From positions 310,001-374,000 of the forward strand of contig JAQUGO010000001.1 of NCBI GenBank assembly GCA_028684065.1: 64,000 bases of DNA, read 5' to 3'. Made by a program: the position numbers and the translations under genes. Shown here in pieces: positions 31,635-52,458 of the stretch. This DNA is from Sulfurospirillaceae bacterium (lineage in GTDB: Bacteria > Campylobacterota > Campylobacteria > Campylobacterales > Sulfurospirillaceae). Position 1 is the first letter of the stretch, and every line of letters starts with the position of its first letter. The notes beneath the pieces are model-generated. The model was not told where the DNA came from, made no database searches, and saw nothing but the letters and a program-made list of their open reading frames with translations.

Positions 31635-31711
31635 TACAAACTTAGCACAGTTTTAGCACACTTGGAAAGAAAATCTCTTGAAATATCGTCATTTAGGGGA
31701 TTTTTAAAGAG

Positions 31712-31756
31712 TGGTGTCAAGAGAGGGACTCGAACCCTCGACCTCCGGCTTATGAG
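31712..31756 (-). other. Attachment-site remnant: 3' half of tRNA-Met(CAT)
   Basis: Read on the minus strand: loop CTCATAA (anticodon CAT), stem GCCGG, variable AGGTC, a perfect T arm GAGGG-TTCGAGT-CCCTC, acceptor strand TCTTGAC, A, CCA. The 5' half is not present; upstream sequence does not pair with the acceptor or anticodon strands. It is thus not a functional tRNA but the duplicated 3' end left when an element integrated into a tRNA-Met gene. The complete copy should lie at the other end of the element, outside the window. Confidence 0.85.
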
Positions 31757-31862
31757 AGAAGAACTCTATCAAATCTTTTAGTTTTTATCAATTCATATTC
31801 CCCTAAAATAGACATTCATATTTCTTTCTATTTCCTATTAAGCTATAATTACTTCCAACAAA

Positions 31863-31888: not shown

Positions 31889-31907
31889 TATTATGCCGGA
31901 GGTCATC

Positions 31908-33029
31908 ATGGCAATAGACGTAAAAGAATTTCCTAATGATGTAGATGTTGGGTTAAAAGCAAACAAAGATTATACAAAATTCTTTTATCGCTTTAAAATC
32001 GATGGCGTTTCTAAACGAGGCATTATTGATTATAGTAACAAAGATTGGGATAAGAGAACTAAAGTATCAAATGCTAAAGTTGAATTGGCACAAAAACGTA
32101 AAAATGAAACTGGTGTCAAAGCAAATTTTACAGAAAGCAGTTCTCTAAATACTATTGCAGATACTTATTTTGAAACGGTATGCAATACAAAAGCAAATTG
32201 GACAAATGAAAGATTAAATGCTTATAACTTATATTGCCGTAACGGCATTGGTAAAAAGAAAATCAAAGATATAAAAGTCGTTGATATTGATCGTTTACGT
32301 AAAGAAATGGAAACAAAAGGACACTCAAAACAAACTGCAAATGGTTGTAGTCCACGGACAATCAAAAAAGTTCTAATGCAATCGCTCAAGCCAATATTGC
32401 AGTATGCAATTGATAACAAAACTATCAGCGATATGCCAAAAATAAATATCCCAAAACAAAATAAACACAAAAAGCTTGTGACTGATGCCGGTATCAAATT
32501 AGCGACCTTGTATAAAACAATCTTTGATTTATATAATGATGATCCTTTCTATCGTGCCCTCTTCCTATTTGCACTTTATGGCAGAAGATGGAATGAAATT
32601 CGAACACTCCAATGGACGGATATTAATTTTCTACAAAACACTTATACGATACGTGCGGAAAACAATAAAATATCAATTGATCAAACCTATGATCTACCAA
32701 TACCAATAGCAGAAGCATTATCTCAGTTGAACAGCAATGGGGGTTTAGTATTCGAATCCCCTATTACGCATCAAGAACTTTTTACCCCAAAAAAGCAACT
32801 TGCAAAAATCAAAAAAACGGCTCAAATACCAGAACTTACTATGCACTATTTTAGACATATATTAGTTTCCGCAATGGGAGAAAGTGGTGTTGCCGGAACC
32901 ATTCTAAGTGCTTCATTGGGGCACACAAATTTAGATACTGTAAATCAATTTTATCTATCAGCAAACCATAAAAAAGCTTCTGAAGAAGCCAATAAAGCAC
33001 TTGACTTAATTGTATCGAGAGATTCATAA
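31908..33029 (+). CDS. int: Tyrosine recombinase (integrase) of the element
   Basis: 373 residues. N-terminal SAM-like core-binding region (TIADTYFETVCNTKANWTNERL), then a catalytic domain with first Arg in YGRRWNEIRTLQWTDI, HYFRHILVSAMGESG (H-x-x-R), LGHTNLD and nucleophile in VNQFYLSA. Start ATG 31908 has GGAGGTCATC upstream; a 5-residue longer frame is possible. Located about 150 bases from the tRNA-Met fragment, as expected for an integrase that targets it. Confidence 0.9.
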   Translation: MAIDVKEFPNDVDVGLKANKDYTKFFYRFKIDGVSKRGIIDYSNKDWDKRTKVSNAKVELAQKRKNETGVKANFTESSSLNTIADTYFETVCNTKANWTNERLNAYNLYCRNGIGKKKIKDIKVVDIDRLRKEMETKGHSKQTANGCSPRTIKKVLMQSLKPILQYAIDNKTISDMPKINIPKQNKHKKLVTDAGIKLATLYKTIFDLYNDDPFYRALFLFALYGRRWNEIRTLQWTDINFLQNTYTIRAENNKISIDQTYDLPIPIAEALSQLNSNGGLVFESPITHQELFTPKKQLAKIKKTAQIPELTMHYFRHILVSAMGESGVAGTILSASLGHTNLDTVNQFYLSANHKKASEEANKALDLIVSRDS

Positions 33030-33109: not shown

Positions 33110-33136
33110 CTAATTAAACCACTTTGGAAAATGACT

Positions 33137-34264: not shown

Positions 34265-34509
34265 ATACATTACCTTATTATTACTTGAGAGATGATCCTG
34301 TGGAATATCCCCCCTCATCTTTTGTTACTTTCCGAACTCGTTGCATCACAGTAGGTACATTTGAACCTCAAATTGTAAAAAAAATCAGACCCATATGTTT
34401 GATTAAATAGAGCAAAAGATACTTTCACTCTACGATCTTGGAAAAAGTCGTAGCAAAGTAAGATATCATATTGAAGAGATATAGTTGTTTATTTTGAGAA
34501 CTTATTTTT

Positions 34510-36189
34510 TTAAATTTCGATTTTTTTAATATCCGCGTCTCCAACAATCCAAAGTCTAAATCTAGCACGGGAAATAGATACATATAGCATTTTTTCACTC
34601 ATACTTGATGAATCCAATATCCATAAGAAAATTATCTTAGATTCAAGACCTTTAAATCTTTTAGCTGTTTCCACTAATACTTTGGATTGGGGAGAAAATT
34701 CTTTAAAAGCCCATATTTTATTATTCTGAGTCCTTTCTAAAAGTCCTTGTGCCGTATTAAAACTATCCATTACAATAACTGCAATATCTTTTGGTTTAAT
34801 ATCTTCTTTATGTATTAACTCAGCAACTTTTTTATCAATTTCAAAAGCTTGTTGTTCAAGTGAACCTTTAACTATAAACTGTGTTCGTTCACCGTCTATT
34901 TTAGGTGCTTCAATCTCTTCACCTTTATAATATTGATATGCCAATTGGTGTATAGGCTTAGTATTTCTACAATTATCAAATAAAAATAACGGCTCACTTT
35001 TAATAGGTAACTCATCTGTTGAAGTATATATAGCTTGATTTCCATCTTGAAAAATGTATAATTTAGTGTTATTGTTACTATCTCTTAATTCTTCTATAGC
35101 TAACCAATACTCATCTTTAAAATCTTGTCCTTCATCTACAATAATCACGTCATATGTGATAGGTGAAATATCATAACTATTTATTAATGCATCAGGCATC
35201 CAAACATTATATTTATCTTCATTATGATAATTTATTTCTGATTCTGCAAGTAAATTCCTATTGGTGTCATTTTGAACCTGTTTTATCCTCCAATTACAAA
35301 ATTGATGAAAACTCATAGGATGTAAGTTTTCTATTCCTTGTGACTTTTCTTTCAATTTATTACCAAGTTTTTCATTATAACAAAGCAGTAAAACTTTTAA
35401 TCCCTGTTTGGCTAAAGTTTGAGCATGGTCTAAAGCCAATACGGTTTTGCCAGTTCCTGCCCCTCCCTCAATAATCGCTTCTTTTCTCTTTTTTAATTGT
35501 CGAAGTATACTTTTTTGCTGATTCGTCAGAATAATTTGTTGTTCGATTTCAGTTTCAATTTTGCTTGCAAGGGATTGTTGAATAGTTACTTGTTTTCCAT
35601 ATAGTTGACTAGCTATATTAACTCCACTAGGTTCTAATGGATTATACTTTGGTTGTTCTCCTGCGTAAAATTGAAAAATTGAAACAATCCAAGTCTTTAA
35701 GTCACTTAATTTATCACTTCCACCTAAAATATTATTGGGGATGGCAGGACTAGATAAGGCATTAATATTAGATATATCAGGAAACAATGCACCATGAGCT
35801 AATAAAATGTTTCTTTTCCCTCTTTGTTCTAAATGATTTCTTATTTCATATTTTGCATCTTTAGCTTGACCTAAAGGATCTTTTATTTCATGCTTATTTT
35901 GATACCTATCTATAGAATACCATTGTCTAGTTTGCCCATCACATTCTACTCCGCCACCTTTAACTTCTATAACCAAAACTCCATACGCAGGGGCAAATAT
36001 CACAAAATCAGCTTCTCTATCTCCATGACTATTGTATTGAGATGTTTTTTTTATAAATTCTAATGAATGAATAACTAACCAATTATCTGGTAACTGAGCT
36101 TCTAATGCTTTGTAAACTTTTTGTTCTGATTTTGGTTCAATTTTGGATATTTGAGTATCTGTTAGTACAGGTATAATATTAGCCATCAA
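34510..36189 (-). CDS. NERD-domain nuclease-like / SF1 (UvrD-Rep) helicase fusion
   Basis: 559 residues. NERD domain at about 20-150 (DREADFVIFAPAYGVLVIEVKGG, a PD-(D/E)xK-like E-x-K core). Then an SF1 helicase: Walker A EGGAGTGKTVLAL near 240, Walker B DVIIVDEGQDF, motif III FQDGNQAIY, motif V AKRFKGLESKIIFLW, motif VI LYVSISRARFRLWIVG. It overlaps the end of the giant GHKL gene by 11 bases (ATG 36189 or 36186), so the two are co-expressed and probably act together on DNA. No phage-defence system with this exact pair is known to me by name. Confidence 0.85.
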   Translation of the reverse strand: MMANIIPVLTDTQISKIEPKSEQKVYKALEAQLPDNWLVIHSLEFIKKTSQYNSHGDREADFVIFAPAYGVLVIEVKGGGVECDGQTRQWYSIDRYQNKHEIKDPLGQAKDAKYEIRNHLEQRGKRNILLAHGALFPDISNINALSSPAIPNNILGGSDKLSDLKTWIVSIFQFYAGEQPKYNPLEPSGVNIASQLYGKQVTIQQSLASKIETEIEQQIILTNQQKSILRQLKKRKEAIIEGGAGTGKTVLALDHAQTLAKQGLKVLLLCYNEKLGNKLKEKSQGIENLHPMSFHQFCNWRIKQVQNDTNRNLLAESEINYHNEDKYNVWMPDALINSYDISPITYDVIIVDEGQDFKDEYWLAIEELRDSNNNTKLYIFQDGNQAIYTSTDELPIKSEPLFLFDNCRNTKPIHQLAYQYYKGEEIEAPKIDGERTQFIVKGSLEQQAFEIDKKVAELIHKEDIKPKDIAVIVMDSFNTAQGLLERTQNNKIWAFKEFSPQSKVLVETAKRFKGLESKIIFLWILDSSSMSEKMLYVSISRARFRLWIVGDADIKKIEI

Positions 36190-39100
36190 TTTTTTTCCAA
36201 GATTTATTAAATTTTTTATTTTTTATCTCTTTTCCAGTTTCTAAAATTAAATCAACTTGAAAAAAAACTCCTCTCGGCTGTACATTTGTAATTACACATG
36301 TAGTTATTAAACCTACAATCTCTACCTCATATTTATCATCAATTTTTGGTTCTTGATTCTCTATCTTTTTCGATTGATAGGTCAGTTGTTTCCAACTACT
36401 ATCAAACATAAATCTATTAGCTTCCAATATAGGATTTTTAAATTGATAGACTTTAGTGTTATCTGTATTGATGTTTTCTACAACAAATAACCACCATTTA
36501 TCTTTTTCTTTTTGAGCAAATTCTAATTGGTCTTTAGTTATTCCCACGCCACCTTGTGCCCATTGTCCTGTTAATGTTTTAACCTCTATGTAACGAATAA
36601 TTTGTCCATTTGTATCTTTTTCATATATATCAAAACCTTTGTTATTGGTTGGTGTTTTTTGGAAATCATTATCTTTTGAAAGAAGCAAAGTTTCTTTGTG
36701 GACTAAAATATAATTTTCTCCTTTATCCCCTATCTCTTTTGCACTCTCTCTTTGACTTATTTCTTGTGCTTCATCTAGTTCTTTATCTTTTCCAACATAT
36801 ACAGGTTTTCTATCATTAGAGCTTATTATTTTTTTATTAGTCGTATTTGATGAACTTGTACCAAAATAAGTGGAAGAACTACTTTCTCGATGTTTCACGC
36901 TATGGTTTTTAGCACTTATGTTCTCGGATGTACTTTTAGGTTTAATAGGAGGAGCTATTTCTCCTTTTGATTTTATATTTAACTGTTCATGATTTTCTTC
37001 TTGATTCATAGGAGTATCATAAATAGTCTCTTCATCAAATTGTTCTGTGTTAGGATTTGAAAATAAAGATACTGTATCGTCTATATCAAATTCTTGAGGT
37101 AAATCTATGACTTTTTTATTATTTAAAAAATCATGTATTTCTTCTTTACTCATTTTATTTCTCAGGATTCTTTCAATCCATCCATAACTATCTCTTGATA
37201 AATTTTTTGTATCGCAAATATATTTCGCGATGATTTCTATCATGTCATCTTCATTGTTGTGTTCAAGGATATAAAGTTTTCCATCACCTTCATAGGTAGT
37301 TTCATCACTTTTAAATAGAAAATTCTTTTCTATAGAGAATTCAATAACCAATTTACTTACAAAAGTTAAATTTGAAGGTAATACATCATGTAAAATAGAT
37401 TCATTTATTTCATTTTCTTTTATCTTTTTTTCATGATATAAAAGTCTTAATATGGCTTCTTTAAAGGAATCATTTTTCAGAATATTTACAATTTCATGAC
37501 TGCTTTCACATTCTACATAATCATAAATGGCAGAAGTATAATTTTCAGTTAAAGATGTAACTTCTAACCTTTTCGCTAATTTTTCAAATTGGTTTTGACA
37601 AAACTTTAAATTTTTATTTTTATCTGTAGCTTTTTTATATGCAGGCAAATCATTTATATATAATTTAGAAGATAAAATGAGTTGATTATCTACTGTTAAA
37701 ATAGGCAATTGATCATTAATTAAATTTTCATCTTCTTTTTGAATTTCAGTAAGTAATGCTCTCGCGTCTTTTAACTGATTTGAATTTAAATCTTGCTCTT
37801 GTGGCAATCTTTTTAGTAGTTCTATTAAAAAATAAAAAGTTGGTTTTTCCTGTACTCCAAGTAAAATTAACCCTTTAGCTAAATTTGATTCTTTGTCATC
37901 TCCAACTAAACTGCTCCAACTATAAATATCCGTTAAATGAATTTCAACTTGATAAACATACTTTGGAGCAATCCATTGATTGTTAATCAATATCGTTTTC
38001 TCTTCTATATCAAAATCAATTGTTTCATCTTTGAATCTTCTACCTATATATTTATAAATTTCTTTAGTATAATTAACTACTTGTCCATTGGTAGGTGATA
38101 GTTTTATCAGTTTTCGAAAGCTTTCAAAAAAAGATTCATTTGGAATATGTGTTATTAATCCCAATTTTGTAGCCATTTCTTTTTCACTAAGGCTACTTTT
38201 CTCATCTTTTTTACCAAGCCTAACACTTCTATCTAAAATATGATAGTATCCACCAGCTATTTTTAAATCATCATACAAGATTAATTCATCTGCTTTTTTT
38301 AATTCTGTATAGGCATATTTAGGTTTTAATAAGTCTTCTGCTTCTTCCACAGGATACCAAGCATATTTTGCCAAAGTATCTAAAATATTCAGTTGTTCAA
38401 ATATTTCAAAGTTATTCGCAATATAGTTTAATAATAAAATAGCATCTTTTTTACTATTTTTTTCAATTATTTGCTTTACTCTATCTTCTATATGTTGTGC
38501 TAGTATTAAAGGAGAAGCCCCTAAATCTTTCAAGAAAACAACCCAACTTTCTTGCGTTTTTTCATCCTCAAAACATATAGGTTTATATCGATTATCACTT
38601 AATATATTTGGTAGTTCAATTGTAGGCATATAAAGCTCTGATGCTTTGTATAAATTTTCTATATTTAAAAAACTGGGGATGATATTTGCATTTTTTAATC
38701 TACTAAAAGTATTATCTTCTATTGCTTCTTTTATCTTATTCCACTCTATAGCTAACCATTTTAAGGTTTCTATTTTATCATTTGTGTCATCACTATTTTT
38801 TAAAAAAGGAATAATAATATCTTGAATATAACTATCAATATTTTGCTCAGTAAATCCCATTTTTCTATAAAGTTCGTAAAGATTAGAAGTTACTTCCACA
38901 GATATAATTTCATATTCGCCTTCAAGACTTTTTATATGTTTTGGTGGCGTAAAATTTGTTGGTAAAAAGAGTTTTGCATCAGTATTCTTATTATAGATAT
39001 TATCCGTTACAGTTTCAACAAACGGTATAGAGTTTAAAGTTAATTTTTCATACTGTGATAAATTTTCAAACCAAGAAATATCTTCAGCCAAAATATCTAT

Positions 39101-41425
39101 CAGATATTCTCTTGCCTCTTTTTTTTGAAAAAATTCAAAACTATCCAATAGCAGAAGATGTTGAATTAATGTAGCTGATGTTAATTGTGTAATAAGTCCC
39201 TCATATTTTAAAAGAGGTTTATATATCTCAATATAATAATGATGAACAATGTTCATTTTAATCTCTTCCAAATAGATTAAATTATTTTCAAGATCTTCAT
39301 CTCTTGGCATATAAGGCGAATAATTTTTTATATCGCTTTGTATTTTTCCGTATTCACCATTTTCTTGATAAATTATTTGAAATTTTTTGATTTCATCTTC
39401 TGCTTCATTATATTCTTCTGAATTTGCATGGACAATTAAATCAATAACTTCTTTAATCCACTCTTTTGAAAGTGTTAAATGTTTCCAATATTCAAGCAAT
39501 AGAGATAGCTGATTTTGCAATGTTGGCTGCAACCAACTACTAGGAAGAGTATCGTGTTTTTTAATGGAGCCTACTAACTCTGTATCAAGAAATAAATGTT
39601 TCATATCTTGAAAAAGTGTTAGATTTGGATTTTTATCAAATAATGTATCGGAACCAATTTTATAAATACTTCTATTTAAAGTTAATTCAAAAGGTAATCC
39701 ATCGAGTAAATTATAATCTTCTCCATTATTGGCACAATATTTTAAGATTTCAAAAAACCACTCTTTTTTTCTCAATATAGCTATAGGCATTTTATCTATA
39801 GATACAGGAAACTCAATAATCTTTGATTCTGTACTTAAATAACCTCTTATATAGTCTGATGTGATTTCAGTTAGTTCAATATCTATATTTGCAAAATTAT
39901 CAATAATATATTTTTGTGGTTTTGGAAGAATAATCGAAAAATGTTTTTCAAAGGCATTAAGCAAAATTTCATTTTTTTCATCTTTAAAATAATGTAAATC
40001 TATTTCTTTTGGAGATAACCATTCTTTTTTTTCTTCAAAGGCTGTATAAAAACATTTCAGCTCAGATATATGTTTATAAAATCCTTTAACTAGTTTATCG
40101 TTTAATGAAAATTCTGTCTCTTTAGCCCAAAAATTATAATGACTGTTTTGTTCTATTTTCAAATAATCAATTAGTAATGCCCATGCTTTAGAAACTCCTT
40201 CTTCTAAAAGAAGCTCATTCCAATGAACTAAAGTTTCTTTATCATCCCCACTACCACTGCTTGTAATTTCAGTTCTTTTAGGATTTAAATCAAACCAGCC
40301 ATGAATATGAACTGGATAATTTGATTTAATTGGTAATGGTAAAAAGGTAAAAAACTTACTTTCATTTTTTATAGGTTGATTTTTATCATCTATCTCAACA
40401 GCTACTCCTACCCAAGGTAAAACTTTTCTAGGGTTTGGAGTAATTTTCAAAACTTTTTTGGCTTGCTGTATCAATGAATTATTGTCACCCCTTAGCAATC
40501 CATTGATAACAGTAAATTTTTTCTTCTCATGCGAATATTGTGCTTTATTTCTATCAAAATAATTAATTTCAAAATGATGTTTATAGGTAAAAAGTGGCAA
40601 CTCATTACCATGTGATTCCCACCTTTCACAAATCTCGATAGGGCTACCTTTAAACTCTTTTTGTATTATGTTGTTGTATTTTTCAAGCTCATCTTTATTT
40701 TCTGTTTTAATATCTAAATGGACTGTTTTTTTACCATCTTCACTAATTTCTTGGAGAATAAGTCTATGCACATGTCTAAGAAATAATAAATTGTCTACAT
40801 TATCTTGCCACGCATCAACCCATTTTAAGAAATCTTCAAATGTAAATATTTCATTGCTTATTTGACTCTCTTTTGAAGTTATTTCATCTCTTAGAGGTAG
40901 TCTAAATATAGTCTTCTCAAAATTTTCATCAATTACATTATTAAAAGTATCTAACCATTCACTTATCTCTTGAGAACTCGTATAGTCCCAGCCTTGGATA
41001 CTTTTGCTTTTTTCTTTACCTACAGCAGTTCGCTGAACATCAAACCAATAAGCTCTACCGTTTGATACAAAACTAGGATGATCAGAAATACTAAAACTAG
41101 AACTAAAGCCTTGACCAAATCTACCAGTAGAATCAGCTTCCTTTGTTTTACCTTGGGCACTTATTTTTACTATGCTTTTAAAATCTTTTTCTTTAAATTG
41201 TGAATTATTTTGTAATAAAAGGGCATTAGTATTTGCTGCTTCAAAATCTGTAGAATTCAATTTTGGATACTGTTGCTTATCAAATGTAACTATTAATTCT
41301 GTAGCACCAGAATCATCTGCATTTTGAAGATATTCTTTAAGAATAGAATCCTTATCATAACCATCAATTAAATCTCTTATTCTTGGTATTAATTCCTCAT
41401 CATAATCCACTTCAAAAGATGACAC
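36179..41425 (-). CDS. Giant GHKL (Hsp90/sacsin-like) ATPase with C-terminal DUF3883 domain
   Basis: 1748 residues. The N-terminal GHKL ATPase has the N-box KEYLQNADDSGATELIV and the G-box TGRFGQGFSSSFSISDHP, as in sacsin and NO VEIN proteins. A long helical middle follows. A C-terminal DUF3883 fold, nuclease-like, is at about 1585-1680 (NKGFDIYEKDTNG, RYIEVKTLTGQWAQGG with E-x-K). A linker rich in Ser/Asn precedes it. GHKL ATPases of this type occur in bacterial conflict systems. GTG 41425 is chosen since AAAGG is correctly spaced; the frame can start 9 bases earlier (GTG 41434) without a usable ribosome-binding site. Transcribed away from hsdR, after a perfect hairpin. Confidence 0.85.
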   Translation of the reverse strand: MSSFEVDYDEELIPRIRDLIDGYDKDSILKEYLQNADDSGATELIVTFDKQQYPKLNSTDFEAANTNALLLQNNSQFKEKDFKSIVKISAQGKTKEADSTGRFGQGFSSSFSISDHPSFVSNGRAYWFDVQRTAVGKEKSKSIQGWDYTSSQEISEWLDTFNNVIDENFEKTIFRLPLRDEITSKESQISNEIFTFEDFLKWVDAWQDNVDNLLFLRHVHRLILQEISEDGKKTVHLDIKTENKDELEKYNNIIQKEFKGSPIEICERWESHGNELPLFTYKHHFEINYFDRNKAQYSHEKKKFTVINGLLRGDNNSLIQQAKKVLKITPNPRKVLPWVGVAVEIDDKNQPIKNESKFFTFLPLPIKSNYPVHIHGWFDLNPKRTEITSSGSGDDKETLVHWNELLLEEGVSKAWALLIDYLKIEQNSHYNFWAKETEFSLNDKLVKGFYKHISELKCFYTAFEEKKEWLSPKEIDLHYFKDEKNEILLNAFEKHFSIILPKPQKYIIDNFANIDIELTEITSDYIRGYLSTESKIIEFPVSIDKMPIAILRKKEWFFEILKYCANNGEDYNLLDGLPFELTLNRSIYKIGSDTLFDKNPNLTLFQDMKHLFLDTELVGSIKKHDTLPSSWLQPTLQNQLSLLLEYWKHLTLSKEWIKEVIDLIVHANSEEYNEAEDEIKKFQIIYQENGEYGKIQSDIKNYSPYMPRDEDLENNLIYLEEIKMNIVHHYYIEIYKPLLKYEGLITQLTSATLIQHLLLLDSFEFFQKKEAREYLIDILAEDISWFENLSQYEKLTLNSIPFVETVTDNIYNKNTDAKLFLPTNFTPPKHIKSLEGEYEIISVEVTSNLYELYRKMGFTEQNIDSYIQDIIIPFLKNSDDTNDKIETLKWLAIEWNKIKEAIEDNTFSRLKNANIIPSFLNIENLYKASELYMPTIELPNILSDNRYKPICFEDEKTQESWVVFLKDLGASPLILAQHIEDRVKQIIEKNSKKDAILLLNYIANNFEIFEQLNILDTLAKYAWYPVEEAEDLLKPKYAYTELKKADELILYDDLKIAGGYYHILDRSVRLGKKDEKSSLSEKEMATKLGLITHIPNESFFESFRKLIKLSPTNGQVVNYTKEIYKYIGRRFKDETIDFDIEEKTILINNQWIAPKYVYQVEIHLTDIYSWSSLVGDDKESNLAKGLILLGVQEKPTFYFLIELLKRLPQEQDLNSNQLKDARALLTEIQKEDENLINDQLPILTVDNQLILSSKLYINDLPAYKKATDKNKNLKFCQNQFEKLAKRLEVTSLTENYTSAIYDYVECESSHEIVNILKNDSFKEAILRLLYHEKKIKENEINESILHDVLPSNLTFVSKLVIEFSIEKNFLFKSDETTYEGDGKLYILEHNNEDDMIEIIAKYICDTKNLSRDSYGWIERILRNKMSKEEIHDFLNNKKVIDLPQEFDIDDTVSLFSNPNTEQFDEETIYDTPMNQEENHEQLNIKSKGEIAPPIKPKSTSENISAKNHSVKHRESSSSTYFGTSSSNTTNKKIISSNDRKPVYVGKDKELDEAQEISQRESAKEIGDKGENYILVHKETLLLSKDNDFQKTPTNNKGFDIYEKDTNGQIIRYIEVKTLTGQWAQGGVGITKDQLEFAQKEKDKWWLFVVENINTDNTKVYQFKNPILEANRFMFDSSWKQLTYQSKKIENQEPKIDDKYEVEIVGLITTCVITNVQPRGVFFQVDLILETGKEIKNKKFNKSWKKIDG

Positions 41426-41525
41426 TGTATTCACCTTTATTCCAGAACGAATTCATAGTTACTCCAAATTATTCTTACATATCCATAAGGATACTTTCTT
41501 GTATATTTCTAACAACTCGATTGGT

Positions 41526-41569
41526 TTGTTCTGGAACATAGTATTTTGCAATACTATGTTCCAGAACAA
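41526..41569. repeat. 20-bp perfect inverted repeat between hsdR and the GHKL gene
   Basis: Arms 41526-41545 and 41550-41569 pair perfectly (core GTTCTGGAACATAGTATT) around a TTGC loop. No T-tract follows on either strand. The outer 9 bases GTTCTGGAA recur once more at 41440-41448 (minus strand), just before the ribosome-binding site of the GHKL gene. Candidate operator, transcript hairpin or cruciform. Confidence 0.8.
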
Positions 41570-41603
41570 TATTCTCTTTGAAAATAATCAACTATTCTTT
41601 ATA

Positions 41604-44543
41604 CTACCTTGCCCTCAAGGCTCTTTCAAAGCTATCTAGCATCCCAATTCTAAATGCCTCGTCGCCCGCAAAAAGCTTATAAAGCTCAAGCTCTTTTTTT
41701 CGTTCTTTATTCATAACTTCAGCAACGATTCTTTCTAATGCTATTCTTCTCGTATGTGTGTCGTTATTGTCTTGGTATTTGGTTTGAAAATCATCATGCG
41801 TTTGCACTTTATCCATCAGACTTATAAATTTAACTCTTTGCTCTTGTGGTGTTGCTTCCCAACCATGAAACCACTTTTCGTTAAATGCTTCAATGATGCT
41901 GTCCAATAAGTCTTTTTCAGGCTCTCCATGTGTTCCTCTAGGGTTTGCATTTTGTGGGTCTAGTTGTGTCTCACTCTCATCAAGCACTATATTTGCACTA
42001 AGCTTTACTCTCTCAAGTCCATAGGTTGATAAATCAACACTATTTAACAGTTCATCGAGCTTATCTTGGTCTTTATCTTTTATAATCAATTTTGGTATTA
42101 AAAATTTTAAAAACCAAAAGAGTTTTTCCCATGCAACTATTTCATAAGGCATAATAGAAGCCATCTGCCCATAGATTTTTACAAACTGTTTTGCTTTGAT
42201 TTTATAATCTACTTTATCTTCATCTTTAAGTTCTAATGCATGATTAAATCTCTCAGCCGCCGTATCTATTATTGGTGAAAGCTTACTTGCGTCTACACCT
42301 TTGAAATATTTTTCAAAAAATTCATCAACTTCATTTGATTCGTAAACACCTAAATCATCAAGTGCGTCTTTTAATTCGTGCAACACATTTATATCAGTAG
42401 CTTCACTAAGCGTTGTTGATGTATAAAATGGATCAAAGGAAACTTTAATATCCTCTATTTTATTAAAAAAATCTAGTACAAATAAATCTTCTGTTTTTTT
42501 ACTATATTTAGGTGCTGAGCGATTAAGACGGGAGAGAGCTTGAACTGCTAATACATCTTGCAATTTTTTATCCACATACATTGTACAAAGCTTTGGTTGG
42601 TCAAAACCTGTTAAAAATTTATTTGCAACTACAAGTAGTTTATATTCATCACTATCAAATTTTTCACTTATATCTTTTCCTGCAAAACCATTCATTCCAT
42701 CTTCTGTATAATCAATTCCTTTAACCTCTTTTTTGCCAGAAAATGCGATTATCGCCTTAAATGGATTACCAAGCTCTACAAGTTTCTTATTTATTGTTTG
42801 AAAATAAACAATAGCTGTTTCGATATTGGCTGTAACAACCATACCTTTTGCTTTGCCTTTTAGCTTCTTAGTTTTGACAACTTTTTCCATAAAATGGTCT
42901 AAGATAATCTCCACTTTTGTAGCTATTGTTGATGGGTTCTTTTCTACAAAACTTCTTAATTTCTTTTGGGCTTTTTTTGTGTCAAATAGTGGATTATCTT
43001 CTATTGATTTGGCAATTTCATAGTAACTTTTGTATGTTGTATAGTTTGATAATACATCTAAAATAAATCCTTCCTCAATAGCTTGTTTCATAGAGTACAG
43101 ATGAAATGGTTTGAAAGTTCCATCTTGTTGTTTGGTTCCAAACTTTTCTAAAGTTGTATTTTTGGGAGTTGCTGTAAATGCAAGGTATGAAGCATTTCCT
43201 TTCATTTTACGACTTTGCATGATTTCTAAAATCATATCTTGAGCATCCATTTCTTCGTCAAACTCTTTTTTACCCATTGCTTCATTCATTTTTCCATGAG
43301 CCGAACCACTTTGAGATGAATGAGCTTCATCTATGATAACCGCGAATCTTTTATCACTTAGGTCGCTTATGCCATCTACAATAAAAGGAAATTTTTGAAT
43401 AGTAGTGAGTATTATCTTTTTACCATTTTCAAGATTGCTTTTGAGTTCACTTGAACTATAGGCGGGAGCTACTATATTTTTTTGTTCACTGAAGCTTTTG
43501 ACATTATCACGAAGTTGTTTATCAAGAAGCTTTCTGTCTGTTACTATAATTACACTATCAAAAAGTGGATAATCCAGACCTTTACTTCCTTGTATATGTT
43601 CACTGTTCGGATAAGCCTCTATAAGCTGATATGCACTCCATGTAATTGAGTTAGACTTTCCACTTCCTGCACTATGTTGGATAAGATAGGTTTTACCCAC
43701 ACCATTGCAGCTGACATCATCTATCAGTTGTCTAACAACATCAAGTTGATGGTATCTTGGAAAATAAAGCGTTTCACCATCCAGCCTTACAAAGTGCTGG
43801 ATGATGTTTGCTAATGAATTTTTACTAAAGATTTCTTCCCAAATATAGGCAGTTTTATGCCCATTTTTATTTACTGGATTGCCAGCCCCAAAATTATTTC
43901 CTTTATTAAAAGGCAAAAAGAAAGTTTTATCATTCTCTAGTTTTGTGGTCATAAATGCTTCATCAGTGTCAATAGTAAAGTGAACGATACATCTAGCAAA
44001 ATTTAATAATGGCTCTCTTGGATCTCTATTTTCTTTATATTGTTTAATCCCATGATACCGTGCATTTTGTCCAGTCCAATGGTTTTTAAGTTCCATTGTA
44101 ATAATTGGTAAGCCATTTAAGAAAATTACCATATCGAGTTCTAACAAAGGATTGGCATTTGAAAAGGTTACTTGTCTTGTGATACTAAATTGATTTGAAG
44201 CAAATCTTCTTTTGAGTTCGTCTCCACTTGAAGCCAAAGGAGCAATATAGAAAAATGTAAAATGAGCATCATCTACATCAAGACCTTTTTTAAGGATTTT
44301 TAGAATCCCATACTTTTTAATCATCTTATCGAGTCTTTGGATGACTTTTAGTTTGTATTGAGGATCTCTTTTGAGTTTATTTAACTCTTCTTCTTGAGTG
44401 GATTCTAAAAAATTCCAAAATATCTTTTCATCAATCGCATACTCTTTATTAAAGTCTTTGTTTTCGCCTTTATAAAAAGCCTGTGCTAATAAAGATTGTT
44501 CAATACAACTTTCTAATGCTTCTTCGTTTGTTTGACTACTCAT
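41604..44543 (-). CDS. hsdR: Type I restriction enzyme R subunit HsdR
   Basis: 979 residues. Nuclease core ELDMVIFLNGLPIITMELKNHW near 136-157 (D...ExK). Translocase: Walker A QHSAGSGKSNSITW near 291, DEAH box VIIDEAHSSQSG, SF2 motif SYLAFTATPKNTT and QALSRLNRSAP. Intact and full length. The start overlaps the end of the rhuM gene as ATGA. It is the last gene of the restriction operon, separated from hsdM and hsdS by the Kiwa-like pair and RhuM. Confidence 0.95.
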   Translation of the reverse strand: MSSQTNEEALESCIEQSLLAQAFYKGENKDFNKEYAIDEKIFWNFLESTQEEELNKLKRDPQYKLKVIQRLDKMIKKYGILKILKKGLDVDDAHFTFFYIAPLASSGDELKRRFASNQFSITRQVTFSNANPLLELDMVIFLNGLPIITMELKNHWTGQNARYHGIKQYKENRDPREPLLNFARCIVHFTIDTDEAFMTTKLENDKTFFLPFNKGNNFGAGNPVNKNGHKTAYIWEEIFSKNSLANIIQHFVRLDGETLYFPRYHQLDVVRQLIDDVSCNGVGKTYLIQHSAGSGKSNSITWSAYQLIEAYPNSEHIQGSKGLDYPLFDSVIIVTDRKLLDKQLRDNVKSFSEQKNIVAPAYSSSELKSNLENGKKIILTTIQKFPFIVDGISDLSDKRFAVIIDEAHSSQSGSAHGKMNEAMGKKEFDEEMDAQDMILEIMQSRKMKGNASYLAFTATPKNTTLEKFGTKQQDGTFKPFHLYSMKQAIEEGFILDVLSNYTTYKSYYEIAKSIEDNPLFDTKKAQKKLRSFVEKNPSTIATKVEIILDHFMEKVVKTKKLKGKAKGMVVTANIETAIVYFQTINKKLVELGNPFKAIIAFSGKKEVKGIDYTEDGMNGFAGKDISEKFDSDEYKLLVVANKFLTGFDQPKLCTMYVDKKLQDVLAVQALSRLNRSAPKYSKKTEDLFVLDFFNKIEDIKVSFDPFYTSTTLSEATDINVLHELKDALDDLGVYESNEVDEFFEKYFKGVDASKLSPIIDTAAERFNHALELKDEDKVDYKIKAKQFVKIYGQMASIMPYEIVAWEKLFWFLKFLIPKLIIKDKDQDKLDELLNSVDLSTYGLERVKLSANIVLDESETQLDPQNANPRGTHGEPEKDLLDSIIEAFNEKWFHGWEATPQEQRVKFISLMDKVQTHDDFQTKYQDNNDTHTRRIALERIVAEVMNKERKKELELYKLFAGDEAFRIGMLDSFERALRAR

Positions 44544-45535
44544 TTTAACCTCTTTATATCTTCTTCAAGTTCTTTGATACTTTGGAATTTTTCTATTTTC
44601 TTCTGTTCATCTTTAAATTTTTGATATTCTAGTTCACTTTTGGCTTTTGCTATTTCGTGGCTTATTTTTCCTGCATGTGTCAATAATTCTCTACCATTCA
44701 TAGACAATATCATATCGAGTCTGATTATCCAATCTTTCATATACATAGGCATCTTTTGAGATGCCATCGTTTCTGCAAATGCTAAATACTGCTCGACTAA
44801 AAGCCCAAGAAGTTTTATCTCTTCTTCGTCCAGATAATTTTTAGCGACACTTACATCTTTTTTGGTGATATTTTTGTTCTCTTTATCAAACGACATCATC
44901 CCTAAAAGCGGTTTTGCGATATCGATCCTGTTGTGTACCAGTTCAGCAGCCGTTTGGCTTGACACTGCCCATAAAAGCTTGTTTTGCACTATTTTAAAAA
45001 ACTCTATTGTTTTTTCATCTGTAGCATCATAGTCAATGCTTGTCATATAGATATCTTTTATTTTTTGATAAAAAAATCGCTCACTAAGGCGTATCTCTCT
45101 TAGTCGTTGTTGAAGTTCATCGAAATAGCTCATAGAGTTGCCATTTTTAAATCGCTCATCATTGAGTACAAAACCTTTGGTGATATACTCTTTTAGCTTG
45201 TCATTTGCCCAGATACGAAATTTTGTACCAGTGGTTGAGCGTACTCTAAAACCAATGGCTATCATCATATCGAGGTTGTAAAACTTCACATCATTACTTT
45301 GAGTTTTTCCTTCAATAGCACCATGTTGTGTGGTTGTTCGGAAATTCCGAACAACCACATTTTCATCTAGTTCACCCTCTTCAAAAATAGCTTTGATATG
45401 CTCACTGATAGTTGATTTTGCTTTGCCAAATACTTCACAAATCTGAGCTTGAGAAAGCCACATAGAGCCATCCTCAAACATCACATCTACTTTAATATTG
45501 CCATTTTCGTTTTGATAGATCAAAATTTCACTCAT
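44540..45535 (-). CDS. RhuM-family protein
   Basis: 331 residues. N-terminal DNA-binding-like part (MWLSQAQICEVFGKAKSTISEHI), then the family core NFRTTTQHGAIEGK ... FYNLDMMIAIGFRVRSTTGTKFRIWA. C-terminal coiled coil rich in Glu/Lys. RhuM proteins are common passengers in type I restriction loci; their role is undefined. Start shares one base with the KwaB-like stop (TAATG) and the end overlaps hsdR by 4 bases. Confidence 0.88.
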   Translation of the reverse strand: MSEILIYQNENGNIKVDVMFEDGSMWLSQAQICEVFGKAKSTISEHIKAIFEEGELDENVVVRNFRTTTQHGAIEGKTQSNDVKFYNLDMMIAIGFRVRSTTGTKFRIWANDKLKEYITKGFVLNDERFKNGNSMSYFDELQQRLREIRLSERFFYQKIKDIYMTSIDYDATDEKTIEFFKIVQNKLLWAVSSQTAAELVHNRIDIAKPLLGMMSFDKENKNITKKDVSVAKNYLDEEEIKLLGLLVEQYLAFAETMASQKMPMYMKDWIIRLDMILSMNGRELLTHAGKISHEIAKAKSELEYQKFKDEQKKIEKFQSIKELEEDIKRLK

Positions 45536-46350
45536 TACATCTCCAAAATTGAATTAGCAAGTCTTTTTTCAGGATGGATTAAAGTCGTATAATACCGTTG
45601 TTCAATTCCAAACAAAACCAACTTCAAATGATCTTCTGTTTCAATCACAAACTTATCTCCATCTGTTGGAACATCTGGGCAATAAGATTTAGTATAAGTT
45701 ACAACTTGTGTTACTTCACTATCTGTAAAGCTATTTAATGTATCAATAGCCATTGCAATTCTTTTTCTATTTGCAGTTTTTACACCATCACTAGTAAAAT
45801 CTGTGCCTAATGAAATAAAACCTTTACCTAAAAAACTATTTACTTCTTCTTGTGTGGCTGTCCGATACAAAGCCTCAATACCCTTAAACATCTGTTTAAT
45901 TTTTGCAATCTCTTTGAAATACAAAGTATCGCTATCTTTATCATATATAGCATCAATCCATTCATTGATTACAATAATTGGTTGATCTGTTTGCAATGTT
46001 GGTGAATCAGTAATCTTAAACCATTTTTTCGATAGAAGTTGAGTAGTTGACATTTTTTGAAATAAATATAGATTATTTTGTTTTGAGCATAAATATTTAA
46101 TATCTTCATATTTATCAGTAGCTATTTGATTAAAAGTAGTTCCATTAAAAGTTTCTTCTATCAATCCATTTGTATAATTTCTAGATAAAAAATTATCTAA
46201 AATGAACCATTCATCATCTTCAAGTTTATACTCTGAAGAATAGCTTTGAGGATTAGCTAAGTTGGGAGTTTCAAGTATAGTGTTTTTTGATGCAATAACT
46301 TTTAAAAACTCATCACCTCTACCTTTTAATTTTGCTAATAAATAGTTCAT
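45535..46350 (-). CDS. KwaB-like protein of a Kiwa-type defence pair (DUF4868-like)
   Basis: 271 residues, cytoplasmic, mixed alpha/beta. The order and spacing of blocks such as LYLFQKMSTTQLL, IDAIYDKDSDTLYF, TANRKRIAMAID and LKLVLFGIEQRYYTTLI resemble DUF4868/KwaB, the DNA-binding partner in Kiwa; KwaB is usually somewhat longer (about 315). The preceding gene encodes a matching small membrane protein with a 4-base overlap, as in kwaAB. Assigned from memory of the family; not certain. Confidence 0.55.
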   Translation of the reverse strand: MNYLLAKLKGRGDEFLKVIASKNTILETPNLANPQSYSSEYKLEDDEWFILDNFLSRNYTNGLIEETFNGTTFNQIATDKYEDIKYLCSKQNNLYLFQKMSTTQLLSKKWFKITDSPTLQTDQPIIVINEWIDAIYDKDSDTLYFKEIAKIKQMFKGIEALYRTATQEEVNSFLGKGFISLGTDFTSDGVKTANRKRIAMAIDTLNSFTDSEVTQVVTYTKSYCPDVPTDGDKFVIETEDHLKLVLFGIEQRYYTTLIHPEKRLANSILEM

Positions 46351-46958
46351 TTTTGTCCTTTATCTAAGTCTATAAATGTGTAATTTGTAATTCTTTTAAG
46401 ATTATTAAATCTTGCACTTCGAGTAGTTTTTATCTCTTTTTTTGTGATTAACAATACTTTGACATTGTTACTATTTATAACATAAAAAAATTTATAGCCA
46501 AAAATAAAAAATATAGGATTGAAGTATGAAATTCTTGAGTAGTAAATAAATATTGCAATGATCCCAAAAACAACAAAAAATATTTCAATATCTGGCACAC
46601 TTAATGCAACAAAAAAATACGCTAAATAGCTTGGTAAAAAAGTATCATTAGCAGGTTCAATATTGGTAAGTGTATCTTTTTCAATTTCATCATCGGATAA
46701 CATATTGATAAAATAGACACTAGCAGTAGATAGTGTAACAATAAAAATAAGATAAAAAAGATAAGAGGCTATATTTAATAAACTATAAAAATACTTGTTG
46801 ATAAAAGGAATTAAAAAATCTATTTTAAGCACTAGGGAACAAATGTAATAAAAGATTGGCTGTATCCAGTCTAAGGTAATATGTTTATGTATTGCAAATA
46901 TTAAAAATGATAGAGACAATGAATTTACTATCAAAAACAATCTAAATATATATGCCAT
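46347..46958 (-). CDS. KwaA-like four-helix membrane protein of a Kiwa-type defence pair
   Basis: 203 residues. Predicted helices at about 4-23, 33-50, 60-85 and 112-140, then a cytoplasmic tail. A conserved-looking segment NIEPANDTFLPSYLAYFFVALS and tail NNLKRITNYTFIDL fit my recollection of KwaA, the membrane sensor of Kiwa. Starts on the last base of the hsdS stop (TAATG), so it is translated within the restriction operon. If not Kiwa, it is still a membrane protein obligatorily paired with the next gene. Confidence 0.55.
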   Translation of the reverse strand: MAYIFRLFLIVNSLSLSFLIFAIHKHITLDWIQPIFYYICSLVLKIDFLIPFINKYFYSLLNIASYLFYLIFIVTLSTASVYFINMLSDDEIEKDTLTNIEPANDTFLPSYLAYFFVALSVPDIEIFFVVFGIIAIFIYYSRISYFNPIFFIFGYKFFYVINSNNVKVLLITKKEIKTTRSARFNNLKRITNYTFIDLDKGQK

Positions 46959-48244
46959 TAAGCTACCCTCACTTTACCTGTAACTACACTATCAATAAGA
47001 GTAGCTTTGTACTCTTTGAGTTTGGTTATGTAGTTTTGTTGTAATTCGATTGTTTTATCGATTTTTGTTGTTTGGTTTTCTATATATTCTACGATTTGGA
47101 GTTGTTCTTGTTTTGGGGGGAGAACAATATTAAGCCGTTTAAAATCAACAAAACTTAGATTTTGTCTTAATCCCGAACCAAGTTTATAGATTGCTTTTGT
47201 AATATCTAATACATGTAAAAGATAATGCCAATATTCTGAACTTCCATCTTTTACATTCAAGTTTAAATATGCACTTGTAATAATTCCGTCATCTTTTGCT
47301 AAAGCTGTTCTAAGGCTTACTTTATCATTTTGTAAGTCCGTACATCTAATTATAATATCTCCAGTTTTTACGATTTGATATGTTTCAAATGATTCAGGAA
47401 CAAGTCCCACTAACTTTTCTTTTGCCTTTCTAATAATTCGACCATAGGATAATGATAAAACTCTATCGTCAATCATCCCAGTATTTTTTCTTTTATTTTC
47501 TTTAAATACTCTAAGCCCAGGTAAAATTTCCCAATGTTTCGGTATCTTTCCAATCCACTCAACACCACTATCTACAAGTTCTACATTTTTATCTAAACCT
47601 TTTGTTACAGCTTCGTTTGTAACGATTTGTTTTCGCTCTTTAAGCAGTGCGATAAGCTTTTCTTTTTGGCTGATGACTTCATTAATTTGAGCGGTTTTTA
47701 CATCAAGAAATAAGGCTATTTTTGTTTGTTCTTGTTTTGGGGGTAATGGAATTTCAAAAGAATTCAAATTACCAACAGTAAGTTGATTGATAGTTGAAGT
47801 TAAAAATTTTCCTGATTGTTTTTTAAAAATTTCAGAATTTAATATCTGAAATAAATAAGAATTTAATTTTGACCTAAAAACAGTTGTAAATGCACCAAAA
47901 GAATAGCTTTCATCCTCTTTTTTTGCAATTGCACACTTTCCAATTAATTCTCTACTTCCATTTCTTGAACAGATTAAAATATCATTTTCTTTAATAAATA
48001 ATTTCTTTGGAATATTGCTTTTAACATATACATTATCATCAAATGTAAGTTTCCCATTTTGAATATTTGATGACCTTAATACTAATGTCCCTTCTTCTTT
48101 ATTACATAAATCATTTGGATTATATGTTAATCCTATCGTTGAAGTTCCAAGATATTTTAATTTGGTAATATTCCAATGTTCTGGTATTTTGCCAATCCAA
48201 TCAACTTTACTATCTTTGTAAGAAGTATATTTTTCCAATGTCAT
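46958..48244 (-). CDS. hsdS: Type I restriction enzyme specificity subunit HsdS
   Basis: 428 residues with two target-recognition domains. The repeat is clear: DWIGKIPEHWNITKLKYLG at the N-terminus and EWIGKIPKHWEILPGLRVF near 240, each TRD followed by a conserved helix (IPLPPKQEQTKIALFLDVKTAQI; IVLPPKQEQLQIVEYIENQTTKI). Start ATG 48244, two bases after the hsdM stop, with GGGAGTATAAG upstream; a longer frame at 48298 lies inside hsdM. Confidence 0.93.
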   Translation of the reverse strand: MTLEKYTSYKDSKVDWIGKIPEHWNITKLKYLGTSTIGLTYNPNDLCNKEEGTLVLRSSNIQNGKLTFDDNVYVKSNIPKKLFIKENDILICSRNGSRELIGKCAIAKKEDESYSFGAFTTVFRSKLNSYLFQILNSEIFKKQSGKFLTSTINQLTVGNLNSFEIPLPPKQEQTKIALFLDVKTAQINEVISQKEKLIALLKERKQIVTNEAVTKGLDKNVELVDSGVEWIGKIPKHWEILPGLRVFKENKRKNTGMIDDRVLSLSYGRIIRKAKEKLVGLVPESFETYQIVKTGDIIIRCTDLQNDKVSLRTALAKDDGIITSAYLNLNVKDGSSEYWHYLLHVLDITKAIYKLGSGLRQNLSFVDFKRLNIVLPPKQEQLQIVEYIENQTTKIDKTIELQQNYITKLKEYKATLIDSVVTGKVRVA

Positions 48245-48245
48245 C

Positions 48246-50594
48246 TTATACTCCCAAAATCTCTTTGATAAGACCTTCACTAGCCTCTTCAAGCTCAAGG
48301 ATATCTTTTGCTACTTCTTCAAGCGTTCTTAGTGGTTTATGAGTATAAAAGTATTTATTAAAGCTGATCTCATAGCCTATCTTTACACTATCAAGATTGA
48401 TCCATGCTTCTTCTACATGTGGTTTTACTTCTTGTAAAAAATACGCTTGGATATTTACATGTAAAGGGATGTTTTCACTGTCTCTTAACTCTGTTTCGCT
48501 CTCATACTCTACATATTCATCTTTTTTGCCTGTAGTAAAGTAGCCAAAATGAGCAAGTTCCTTTTCTTTACATGTAAGATGCTCTAGGAGTTGTTCTTTT
48601 TTTTCTCCGCTGATTTTAGAGATTTTCTTGATGACTTTTTGTGCATTTTCATCATACCAACTTACCGCATTTAGTATGGTACTTAATTCGGCGTTACTTA
48701 GTTTTATCTTTTCTTCTTTTAGTGTTTTTTCAACTTTATCTTTGAAGATATTAAAATCATCGTATTCAGTTGTTCCTATTTTTTCTTGAAGTAATTTTGC
48801 TGTATTTTCTAAAGTTTTATGTTTTGTCCATAACTCTTTTGAAAATAGAGATTTCAACTGTTTTGCATTTAGTTCTATGTCATTTTTATCTAAGTATTCT
48901 TCAATAACTTTTTTATATTTTGACAAGTCTACATAACACACTGCTTTATACTCTTCTAAACACCATCTCATAGGCTCTTCTAAGGTTTTATCAAATCTTA
49001 GTGTTTCTATCAAATCATCTCTAAGCTGAGACTTCAATCTTTTTGGTCTCTCAATATTTACTTTGTAGTATCCAAAATCACTATTATTAAAGGTTTTTGA
49101 AGAGATTTTTTTACCATTACACTCATCATCACATGTTTCAAATTTTTTATAAATCTCCATGATTTTGGAGATTTGCTTAGGCTCTAATTCGCAGTTTTTA
49201 TCACCTAAATTTTTTCGCAATTTTGAGTATAAATCATTTGCATCTATAAGCTGCACTTTGCCTTTTCTCGTTTGTGCTTTCTTATTTGATAAAAGCCAAA
49301 TATAGGTTGTAATTCCCGTGTTATAAAAAAGGTTGTTCGGTAGCTGGATGATGGCATCAAGTAAATCATTTTCGATGATATATCTTCGTATGTTACTTTC
49401 TCCACCACCTGCATCACCCGTAAAAAGGCTACTTCCATTGTGAACTGAGGCTATACGACTTCCTACACTATTTGAAGATGATGGTTTCATTTTTCCAACC
49501 ATTTCCATTAAAAAGAGTAACTGTCCATCACTACTTCGTGGAGTTGCATCTACATCACTTTTATTTCCCCAATAATCAGCTAAATTTACAATAAATCTTG
49601 TATCAATAACATCTTTACCATCTTTGATGTATTTTTGTTCACTTGCCCATGACTTACCATAAGGAGGATTTGAGAGCATAAAGTCAAATTTTATTCCTGC
49701 GAAATCATCTACACTTAGTGTTGAGCCATTTTTGATATTTTCAGGGTTGTTTCCTTTTACCATCATATCTGATTTGCAAATGGCATAAGTTTCGTCATTT
49801 ATCTCTTTTCCATACAAGATAACATCGCCTGTTGCTTTTATCTCTCCATCTTCATCTTTGATAAAATTTTGAGACTCTGTTAACATACCACCGCTTCCAC
49901 AAGCGGGGTCATAGATGGTCATAACTGGCGGTAGATTGTCTTTTATAGGATCAAACACGATATGAGTCATAAGGTCTATCACTTCTCTTGGAGTGAAGTG
50001 TTCTCCCGCTTCTTCGTTGTTGTCTTCGTTAAATTTTCGTATCAGTTCTTCAAACACATATCCCATACCAAGATTTGTCAGTGGTGGAAGTTTTTTGCCC
50101 TCAGGATCAAGTGCTTCTTTGTCTGTAAGGTTGATGTAAGAGCTTGTAAATTTTTCTAAAACATCAAGAAGTACATCTTTATCTGCCATATGTTTGATTT
50201 GAGATTTTAATTTGAACTTTTCAATAATCTCTTGTACATTTTTACTAAATCCATTGAGGTACTCTGTGAAGTTTGCTTCAAGCATTTGTGATGAGTTTGT
50301 TGCAGTATCAAATAGTTTTTGTAAAGTCCATTTACTAGTGTTATAAAATACATATCCACTTGAATCTTGTAATCCTCTCTCATCAAATTCTGTAAAACCA
50401 GCTTCTTCTTTTTGAAATCTAAGCTCCTCGAGTACAGCTTCTTTTGTAGGCTCAAGTAGTGCATCAAGTCTTCGTAAAACTACCATAGGTAAAATAACAT
50501 CTCTATATTTGCCTCTAACATACACATCTCTTAGACAATCATCTGCGATTGACCATATAAAATTTACTAATTTGTTGTGTACTGCTTGATTCAT
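48246..50594 (-). CDS. hsdM: Type I restriction enzyme modification subunit HsdM
   Basis: 782 residues, N6-adenine methyltransferase. SAM-binding motif I YDPACGSGGML near 229 and catalytic motif IV SNPPYGKSW are intact; N-terminal HsdM helical domain (VNFIWSIADDCLRDVYVRGKYRDVILPMVVLRRLD) and GEHFTPREVIDLM. The C-terminal 250 residues form an extended helical region. One base separates it from the pseudo-methyltransferase fusion upstream. Confidence 0.95.
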   Translation of the reverse strand: MNQAVHNKLVNFIWSIADDCLRDVYVRGKYRDVILPMVVLRRLDALLEPTKEAVLEELRFQKEEAGFTEFDERGLQDSSGYVFYNTSKWTLQKLFDTATNSSQMLEANFTEYLNGFSKNVQEIIEKFKLKSQIKHMADKDVLLDVLEKFTSSYINLTDKEALDPEGKKLPPLTNLGMGYVFEELIRKFNEDNNEEAGEHFTPREVIDLMTHIVFDPIKDNLPPVMTIYDPACGSGGMLTESQNFIKDEDGEIKATGDVILYGKEINDETYAICKSDMMVKGNNPENIKNGSTLSVDDFAGIKFDFMLSNPPYGKSWASEQKYIKDGKDVIDTRFIVNLADYWGNKSDVDATPRSSDGQLLFLMEMVGKMKPSSSNSVGSRIASVHNGSSLFTGDAGGGESNIRRYIIENDLLDAIIQLPNNLFYNTGITTYIWLLSNKKAQTRKGKVQLIDANDLYSKLRKNLGDKNCELEPKQISKIMEIYKKFETCDDECNGKKISSKTFNNSDFGYYKVNIERPKRLKSQLRDDLIETLRFDKTLEEPMRWCLEEYKAVCYVDLSKYKKVIEEYLDKNDIELNAKQLKSLFSKELWTKHKTLENTAKLLQEKIGTTEYDDFNIFKDKVEKTLKEEKIKLSNAELSTILNAVSWYDENAQKVIKKISKISGEKKEQLLEHLTCKEKELAHFGYFTTGKKDEYVEYESETELRDSENIPLHVNIQAYFLQEVKPHVEEAWINLDSVKIGYEISFNKYFYTHKPLRTLEEVAKDILELEEASEGLIKEILGV

Positions 50595-52343: not shown

Positions 52344-52458
52344 AATTTTACTCCAACACAAGGCAAATATGCAATTAGTCTTGTATTTACTAATTGTGTT
52401 GAAATGTTATCAGTTTTTTAAAAGCTTGTCAAGTAGTCTAGTATTTACTTATTACATT

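Follow-up and report, generated by a model that had tools for sequence, protein, structure and literature searches.

Two overlapping genes on the reverse strand, at positions 34510-41425 of the 64,000-nucleotide stretch of DNA analysed here (the window), encode a giant GHKL ATPase and a helicase-nuclease. Do they form one anti-phage system, and is that system new? An earlier, sequence-only reading had proposed that they do and knew of no named system of this composition. Taken singly, both components turned out to be catalogued, the large protein as TmtA of Tiamat and the helicase as RTasNERD-Hel in PADLOC, so the absence of a name did not survive for the parts; for the pair it stands as far as we could find. 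Because the components are catalogued and the pairing apparently is not, we treat the locus as a variant of a known system and not as a new one.

Two overlapping genes encode a TmtA-like protein and a helicase

The gene models that we prefer are as follows.

34510..36186, (-): NERD-SF1 (UvrD-like) helicase-nuclease gene, about 1.7 kb; 558 aa from ATG 36186
36179..41425, (-): tmtA, encoding a TmtA-like (Tiamat) giant protein, ~5.2 kb; 1748 aa from GTG 41425; PADLOC TmtA match
36179..36186, (-): stop/start overlap of the helicase gene and tmtA, 8 nt, ATGGCTAA, counted from ATG 36186

We searched the large protein against PADLOC-DB 2.0.0, from which the TmtA family model was taken. It matched TmtA (PDLC03966) with an E value of 4.9e-272 and 904 bits, residues 10-1689 aligning with positions 27-1649 of 1655, and its matches were confined to TmtA and one weak PDC family. 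The TmtA family in PADLOC is broad: all 24 of the unpaired GHKL proteins that we rescanned match it at 1e-30 or better. Judged from these alignments, the large protein is almost certainly a member of the TmtA (Tiamat) family. Tiamat was reportedly validated by Millman and colleagues in 2022 as a single-gene system, and the validated protein carries DUF3883. It is listed among systems of unknown mechanism (PMC10482375).

Both genes have more than one candidate start. The first GTG of tmtA lies at 41434 and gives an alternative ORF of 1751 aa (36179-41434, (-)); GTG 41425 is preferred because an AAAGG Shine-Dalgarno sequence lies 8 nt upstream of it and because it agrees with the starts in Shewanella and Colwellia. 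For the helicase, TTG 36189 gives the alternative ORF 34510-36189 (-), and ATG 36186 is the better start because it fits the homologous start MA.(I/M)(I/F)P. Both ORFs were located correctly in the sequence-only reading, and the end that it gave for the large gene, 41425, is the preferred GTG. Its overlap of 11 bases is right when counted from TTG 36189 and shortens to 8 nt from ATG 36186. At the corresponding junction Shewanella has TGATG and Colwellia has TAATG, and tmtA and the helicase gene are likely to be translationally coupled. Residue numbers below refer to the ORF from GTG 41434 (1751 aa) for the large protein and to the ORF from TTG 36189 for the helicase.

A 14-codon ORF, MNSFWNKGEYSVIF (window 41412-41456, (-)), has a GGAG ribosome-binding site and runs across the tmtA start in another reading frame; it is possibly a leader peptide for coupled translation.

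Domain organization of TmtA and the helicase

The earlier reading named four domains, an Hsp90/sacsin-like ATPase, DUF3883, NERD and a helicase, and Pfam matched all of them. The large protein contains a sacsin/GHKL domain (SACS, PF25794; E = 2e-46) and NOV_C/DUF3883 (PF13020; E = 3e-12), and the small protein contains NERD (PF08378; E = 8.5e-13) and an AAA_19/UvrD helicase (E = 6e-11). Pfam and predicted structures divide TmtA into the following parts.

40157..41425, (-): GHKL/Hsp90-type ATPase and transducer at the N terminus, residues ~1-426; Pfam SACS and predicted structure
36365..36763, (-): DUF3883/NOV_C PD-(D/E)XK nuclease domain, residues ~1558-1690, with D1602, E1617 and K1619
36182..36358, (-): SH3/Tudor-like C-terminal domain, residues ~1693-1751; structure comparison of the model

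The ATPase head has an intact N-box (EYLQNADDSGA) and G-box (GRFGQGF). In a predicted structure of residues 1-1000 (pLDDT 83.1), residues 12-244 matched sacsin SR1 with a Z score of 25.3, and residues 12-426 matched SMCHD1 (Z 13.0) and MORC2 (Z 11.9). Residues 12-426 are thus modelled as an ATPase and transducer module like that of the ATP-operated clamps (MORC/SMCHD1-like). A second model, covering residues 700-1751, had a pLDDT of 77.6. Its middle region is long and made of repeated alpha/beta units, with a disordered linker at about 1452-1555; structure comparison of the predicted model gave no trustworthy fold match for this region, which is not proof of a new fold.

The DUF3883 domain (residues 859-991 of model mcf50e4700e30) resembled a SPARDA nuclease subunit (9qcc, Z 10.7) and the archaeal Hjc resolvase (2wcw, Z 9.9). 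SPARDA acts in abortive infection. Foldseek alone returned no E value below 0.001 for the 700-1751 model, so the PD-(D/E)XK assignment rests on the VIA Z scores together with the Pfam match and the conserved D...EVK residues. An earlier description presents DUF3883 as a novel REase domain (PMC3710099). The C-terminal barrel matched the Tudor domain of PcrA/UvrD (5dma) with a Z score of 6.8, which is in the range of common arrangements, and elongation factor P with the same score.

In the small protein, a NERD nuclease at residues ~21-125 (E59, D61, E75 and K77) is followed by a helicase part at residues ~220-555 with Walker A (GGAGTGKT) and Walker B (DEGQD) motifs. PADLOC RTasNERD-Hel (PDLC03813) matched it over its full length (E = 1.6e-62), and C3a187 NERD+UvrD matched more weakly.

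The gene pair recurs across bacterial phyla

The first recurrence of the pair was on a Sphingomonas plasmid, where the gene order is the same and the helicase is 35% identical. When 84,980 genomes were then scanned with an alignment, at least 79 loci came out, a sample that is biased to relatives of the window protein and is no census. From the scan loci, the plasmid and IMG/VR loci we took for examination 72 TmtA-like proteins with a length of 1000 aa or more. A NERD helicase is the next downstream ORF on the same strand in 32 of these loci, and two more (L075 and L105) are paired but fragmented. The total is at least 34 of 72, in the window genome and about 30 unrelated ones, two of the paired loci (L031 and L088) being identical. 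The gaps between the tmtA and helicase ORFs range from -92 to +10 nt, and most pairs overlap or abut. Recurrence on this scale in the sampled loci excludes chance adjacency. It bears out the earlier treatment of the two genes as one unit and answers the worry, raised with it, that they might rarely be conserved together.

Hosts of the pair include the window genome (Campylobacterota), Alpha-, Beta- and Gammaproteobacteria, Myxococcota, Acidobacteriota, Chloroflexota, Planctomycetota and Thermodesulfobacteriota; Shewanella morhuae, Marinobacter and Methylobacillus are among them. Of 25 members of the main Pseudomonadota clade, 21 are paired, and none of the 16 complete TmtA-like members lacking a recognizable DUF3883 EVK motif is paired (the fragmented L075 was left out of this count). 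The GHKL and DUF3883 active sites are conserved in paired TmtA, with two exceptions in DUF3883.

These exceptions are the identical loci L031 and L088 of Corallococcus praedator, in which the paired TmtA lacks the first DUF3883 aspartate (GCSLES for GYDI.S) and keeps EVK. The DUF3883 nuclease may thus not always be required; in these two proteins it is perhaps inactive and dependent on the NERD partner.

Within the window phylum, 200 relatives and 397 phylum genomes contained no other relative of comparable score; the weak matches in G449 and G472 were rejected as other GHKL proteins. TmtA was not found among 50,697 phage records, and plasmid records compared with the window TmtA sequence gave short C-terminal matches only. 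IMG/VR scans with a single sequence of either protein or with a two-row alignment returned nothing; those with conserved-motif alignments did give matches. A literature search, thin on subscription journals and preprints, found no publication linking Tiamat to a NERD helicase, and we know of no description of Tiamat with an overlapping downstream NERD-SF1 helicase gene. The pairing of TmtA with a NERD-SF1 helicase is apparently undescribed so far.

The pair is exchangeable cargo of a tRNA-Met island

The pair sits in an island of about 34.7 kb at tRNA-Met, flanked by 48-bp direct repeats, with these features.

31710..31757, (+): attL, 48-bp repeat of the tRNA-Met 3' portion; repeat comparison
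31893..33029, (+): tyrosine integrase of the island; Pfam PF00589
33131..34264, (+): Fic-domain protein, in the same slot as the pair on the opposite strand; Pfam Fic and DUF4172, PADLOC SoFic
41526..41569, no strand: inverted repeat between hsdR and tmtA, two perfect 20-bp arms around a 4-nt loop; slot edge
41604..44543, (-): HsdR, type I R-M; Pfam/PADLOC, 99% identical in the congener G005
44540..45535, (-): RhuM-family protein (PDC-S05), in the R-M operon; Pfam/PADLOC
45535..46958, (-): Kiwa-like KwaB (E = 3e-17) and KwaA (E = 2e-12), second exchangeable slot
46958..52361, (-): HsdS, HsdM and a second methylase/specificity protein; PADLOC/Pfam
window-equivalent 66363-66410, outside the window: attR, 48-bp repeat

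The integrase, the direct repeats and the tRNA-Met target confirm the mobile element that the sequence-only reading had proposed, and the restriction operon that it placed nearby is a type I R-M operon by Pfam and PADLOC. The defence context holds as well.

A sister island in the congener G005 defines this slot. Its HsdR is 99% identical to that of the window, against only about 75% for a chromosomal segment, and homology between the islands starts at 41582, just past the inverted repeat. This repeat may serve as a terminator or an operator, or may be a scar left by recombination. Between integrase and HsdR, G005 carries a single 610-aa DUF262/GmrSD-type protein, whereas the corresponding window slot (about 33017-41581) holds the Fic gene, the helicase gene and tmtA; the Fic gene is absent from the sister island. 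Between RhuM and HsdS, G005 carries Hachiman HamAB where the window has the Kiwa-like pair. In this comparison the helicase gene and tmtA are jointly present or jointly absent, in a slot used for restriction genes, and the pair is exchangeable cargo of the island.

Beyond the pair, comparison of L205 (9490-20000) and L206 (G005:C36) with window positions 31669-59367 reveals two congeneric tRNA-Met islands that have a phage-like backbone (Rad52, Gp157 and DUF932) in common as well as the integrase and type I R-M, and in which defence cargo is exchanged at two fixed slots, a modular swapping on the scale of the island. The Kiwa-like pair is diverged; it is enclosed by the type I R-M operon, with the RhuM gene on one side and hsdS on the other. 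The second methylase gene (50595-52361, (-)) is fused to a specificity domain (N6_Mtase and Methylase_S) and lies beside separate HsdM and HsdS.

TmtA and the helicase are inherited together

In a tree of 54 helicases, quickly built and with some long branches, all 33 TmtA-linked helicases fall in one clade (SH-aLRT 98), and the DrmAB-linked and DruE-linked helicases branch outside it. All 33 retain NERD residues E59, D61, E75 and K77 and helicase residues G245, G247, K248, T249, D352, E353 and R408. Between the TmtA tree and the helicase tree, distances correlate with r = 0.869 over 30 pairs and r = 0.684 over 18 well-separated ones, and none of 5000 permutations gave a correlation as high as that observed; the permutation ignores shared ancestry, so we read the correlation as co-inheritance and not as contact. 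In the one tree as in the other, the window pair falls together with Shewanella and Colwellia, which implies that the two genes moved between phyla together. Judged from these trees, TmtA and the helicase have remained partners since they were first joined long ago.

We searched three paired genomes in full and found no second helicase of the family in any of them. The 398 genomes of the Marinobacter phylum gave about 4 strong matches; one is partnered by TmtA, one by DruE and two by DrmAB, with a different order at one of these two loci. We set aside, as another family, NERD-UvrD proteins of 140-200 bits and about 600-640 aa in the Pseudomonadota sample, most of which have no recognized defence partner.

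Two independent defences could in principle give the same arrangement, if TmtA works by itself as single-gene Tiamat and travels by chance with a NERD helicase that is a defence of its own or an accessory. Such independence would account for the many helicase-less TmtA loci in our sample, among them L150, which is very close to the paired L024, and for a helicase family whose members also neighbour DISARM, Druantia and DpdF-like helicases and include a named DRT accessory. Mere co-travellers, however, would swap partners, whereas order, strand and overlap are kept at deep divergence, the TmtA-linked helicases form one clade and the trees match. We therefore consider independence unlikely, and think it probable that TmtA and the helicase make up a two-gene functional unit. 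Since helicase-less TmtA exist even near paired ones, TmtA may nevertheless act alone with the helicase as an auxiliary, and the helicase may be a non-essential accessory that broadens or backs up TmtA.

A possible mechanism for the pair

Our best explanation, to which we give a probability of roughly 0.6, is a two-gene variant of Tiamat, with TmtA as an ATP-gated sensor and clamp-nuclease and the helicase-nuclease as its dedicated DNA-processing partner. Family membership and pairing are well supported, and we infer antiphage activity of the window locus. The specific sensor–nuclease–helicase mechanism is a more tentative proposal. The middle region of TmtA would sense an infection cue, and ATP-driven closing of the head, as in MORC, SMCHD1 and Hsp90 proteins, would form a clamp and license the DUF3883 nuclease. 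The NERD helicase, produced in matched (stoichiometric) amount through translational coupling, would load at nicked or cut DNA or at single-stranded replication DNA and would unwind and degrade it. Replicating phage DNA would be the likeliest target, and suicidal destruction of host DNA an alternative outcome. There are precedents for this scheme: in VcSduA, a GHKL ATPase has been proposed to control (gate) a PD-(D/E)xK antiphage nuclease (PMC12137116), and Hachiman combines a sensor helicase with an effector nuclease (PMC12278908).

It is also conceivable, and in our view quite unlikely, that the helicase is a backup suicide effector that TmtA restrains and that is freed to destroy host DNA once TmtA is inhibited or overwhelmed. 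Such a role has been proposed for the NERD domains of PglW and DndF (PMC12839542, PMC10853773), and the invariant NERD active site of the TmtA-linked homologues and the closeness of the DUF3883 fold to the SPARDA nuclease would agree with it, but the fusion to a helicase and the strict 1:1 pairing fit DNA processing equally well or better. A housekeeping role as chaperone or in DNA repair, without a part in phage defence, might be imagined by analogy with human sacsin, whose SR1 is closest to the ATPase head (Z 25.3), but it is highly improbable given the sporadic distribution (absence from 199 sampled relatives), the membership of the protein in the Tiamat family and a mobile-island slot that is exchanged with a GmrSD-type gene near type I R-M and Kiwa or Hachiman.

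A two-gene variant of Tiamat would have practical consequences. Tiamat is currently scored as one gene; if much of the family truly has two, tests of tmtA only may miss or understate activity, and annotation tools omit half of the system. The pairing also offers a directly testable mechanism, with four active sites and one putative complex.

Comparison with known systems

Tiamat is the nearest named system. A full-length TmtA match, the GHKL ATPase head and the DUF3883 tail are common to both, and the window locus adds the overlapping downstream NERD-SF1 helicase gene. VcSduA (Shedu type I-D; PMC12137116) likewise fuses a GHKL ATPase to a PD-(D/E)XK nuclease but has DUF4263 in place of DUF3883 and no helicase partner; Pfam gives only SACS and NOV_C in the large protein and no DUF4263, and we rejected membership of Shedu. 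Gabija (GajB) and Hachiman (HamAB) resemble the window pair as two-gene defences that combine an SF1 or SF2 helicase with a nuclease. The pair, however, has no GajA or HamA, and the similarity of the small protein to GajB is weak (31 bits) and limited to the helicase part and its motifs, so we rejected Gabija. Nhi and AbiO were considered and rejected on Pfam and PADLOC results. NERD nucleases are mentioned in TALON, PglW and DndF (PMC12458937, PMC12839542, PMC10853773), and NERD is listed for Mokosh and Nhi-like systems (PMC10952713).

The small protein also has counterparts in other systems. The full-length match to RTasNERD-Hel is to an accessory helicase of reverse-transcriptase (DRT) systems; the partner here is TmtA, and the classified neighbours (TmtA, Fic, integrase and type I R-M) include no reverse transcriptase, so the locus was not assigned to DRT. 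In DISARM-like and Druantia loci, a homologous helicase occupies the same downstream position, directly after DrmA-DrmB (L003-L005, L007, L036, L037, L040, L042, L043 and L172) or DruE (L016, L018, L035 and L174), and in L039 it follows a DpdF-like/alt-Cas3 helicase. These loci have another main protein, and their helicases lie outside the TmtA-linked clade. DISARM was rejected because the R-M operon, the pair and the neighbouring genes that we scanned gave no DrmA or DrmB match, and Druantia because the main protein, with its matches to TmtA and one weak PDC family, is not DruE.

Two further arrangements were seen. On the Sulfuricurvum kujiense plasmid pSULKU01 (L015, 6195-14730), a stand-alone NERD protein of 229 aa adjoins a short GHKL-DUF3883 protein of 1006 aa, followed by QatABCD. 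In L173 (2613-15000, G771), a 1792-aa protein with no PADLOC match at 1e-10 is followed by genes for a NERD helicase and for DrmA-like and DrmB-like proteins; this may be a DISARM-like operon that has no name yet.

DISARM, Druantia and DRT proteins all have members of this one helicase family beside them, which suggests a common effector step in systems now treated as unrelated. Somewhat short of an even chance, in our estimate, is the broader idea that the NERD-SF1 helicase is a general plug-in immune effector, adopted largely clade by clade by TmtA, DrmAB, DruE and probably others. Systems with different sensors would then end in one shared step of DNA processing, TmtA being the ATP-gated clamp-nuclease that passes DNA to the helicase.
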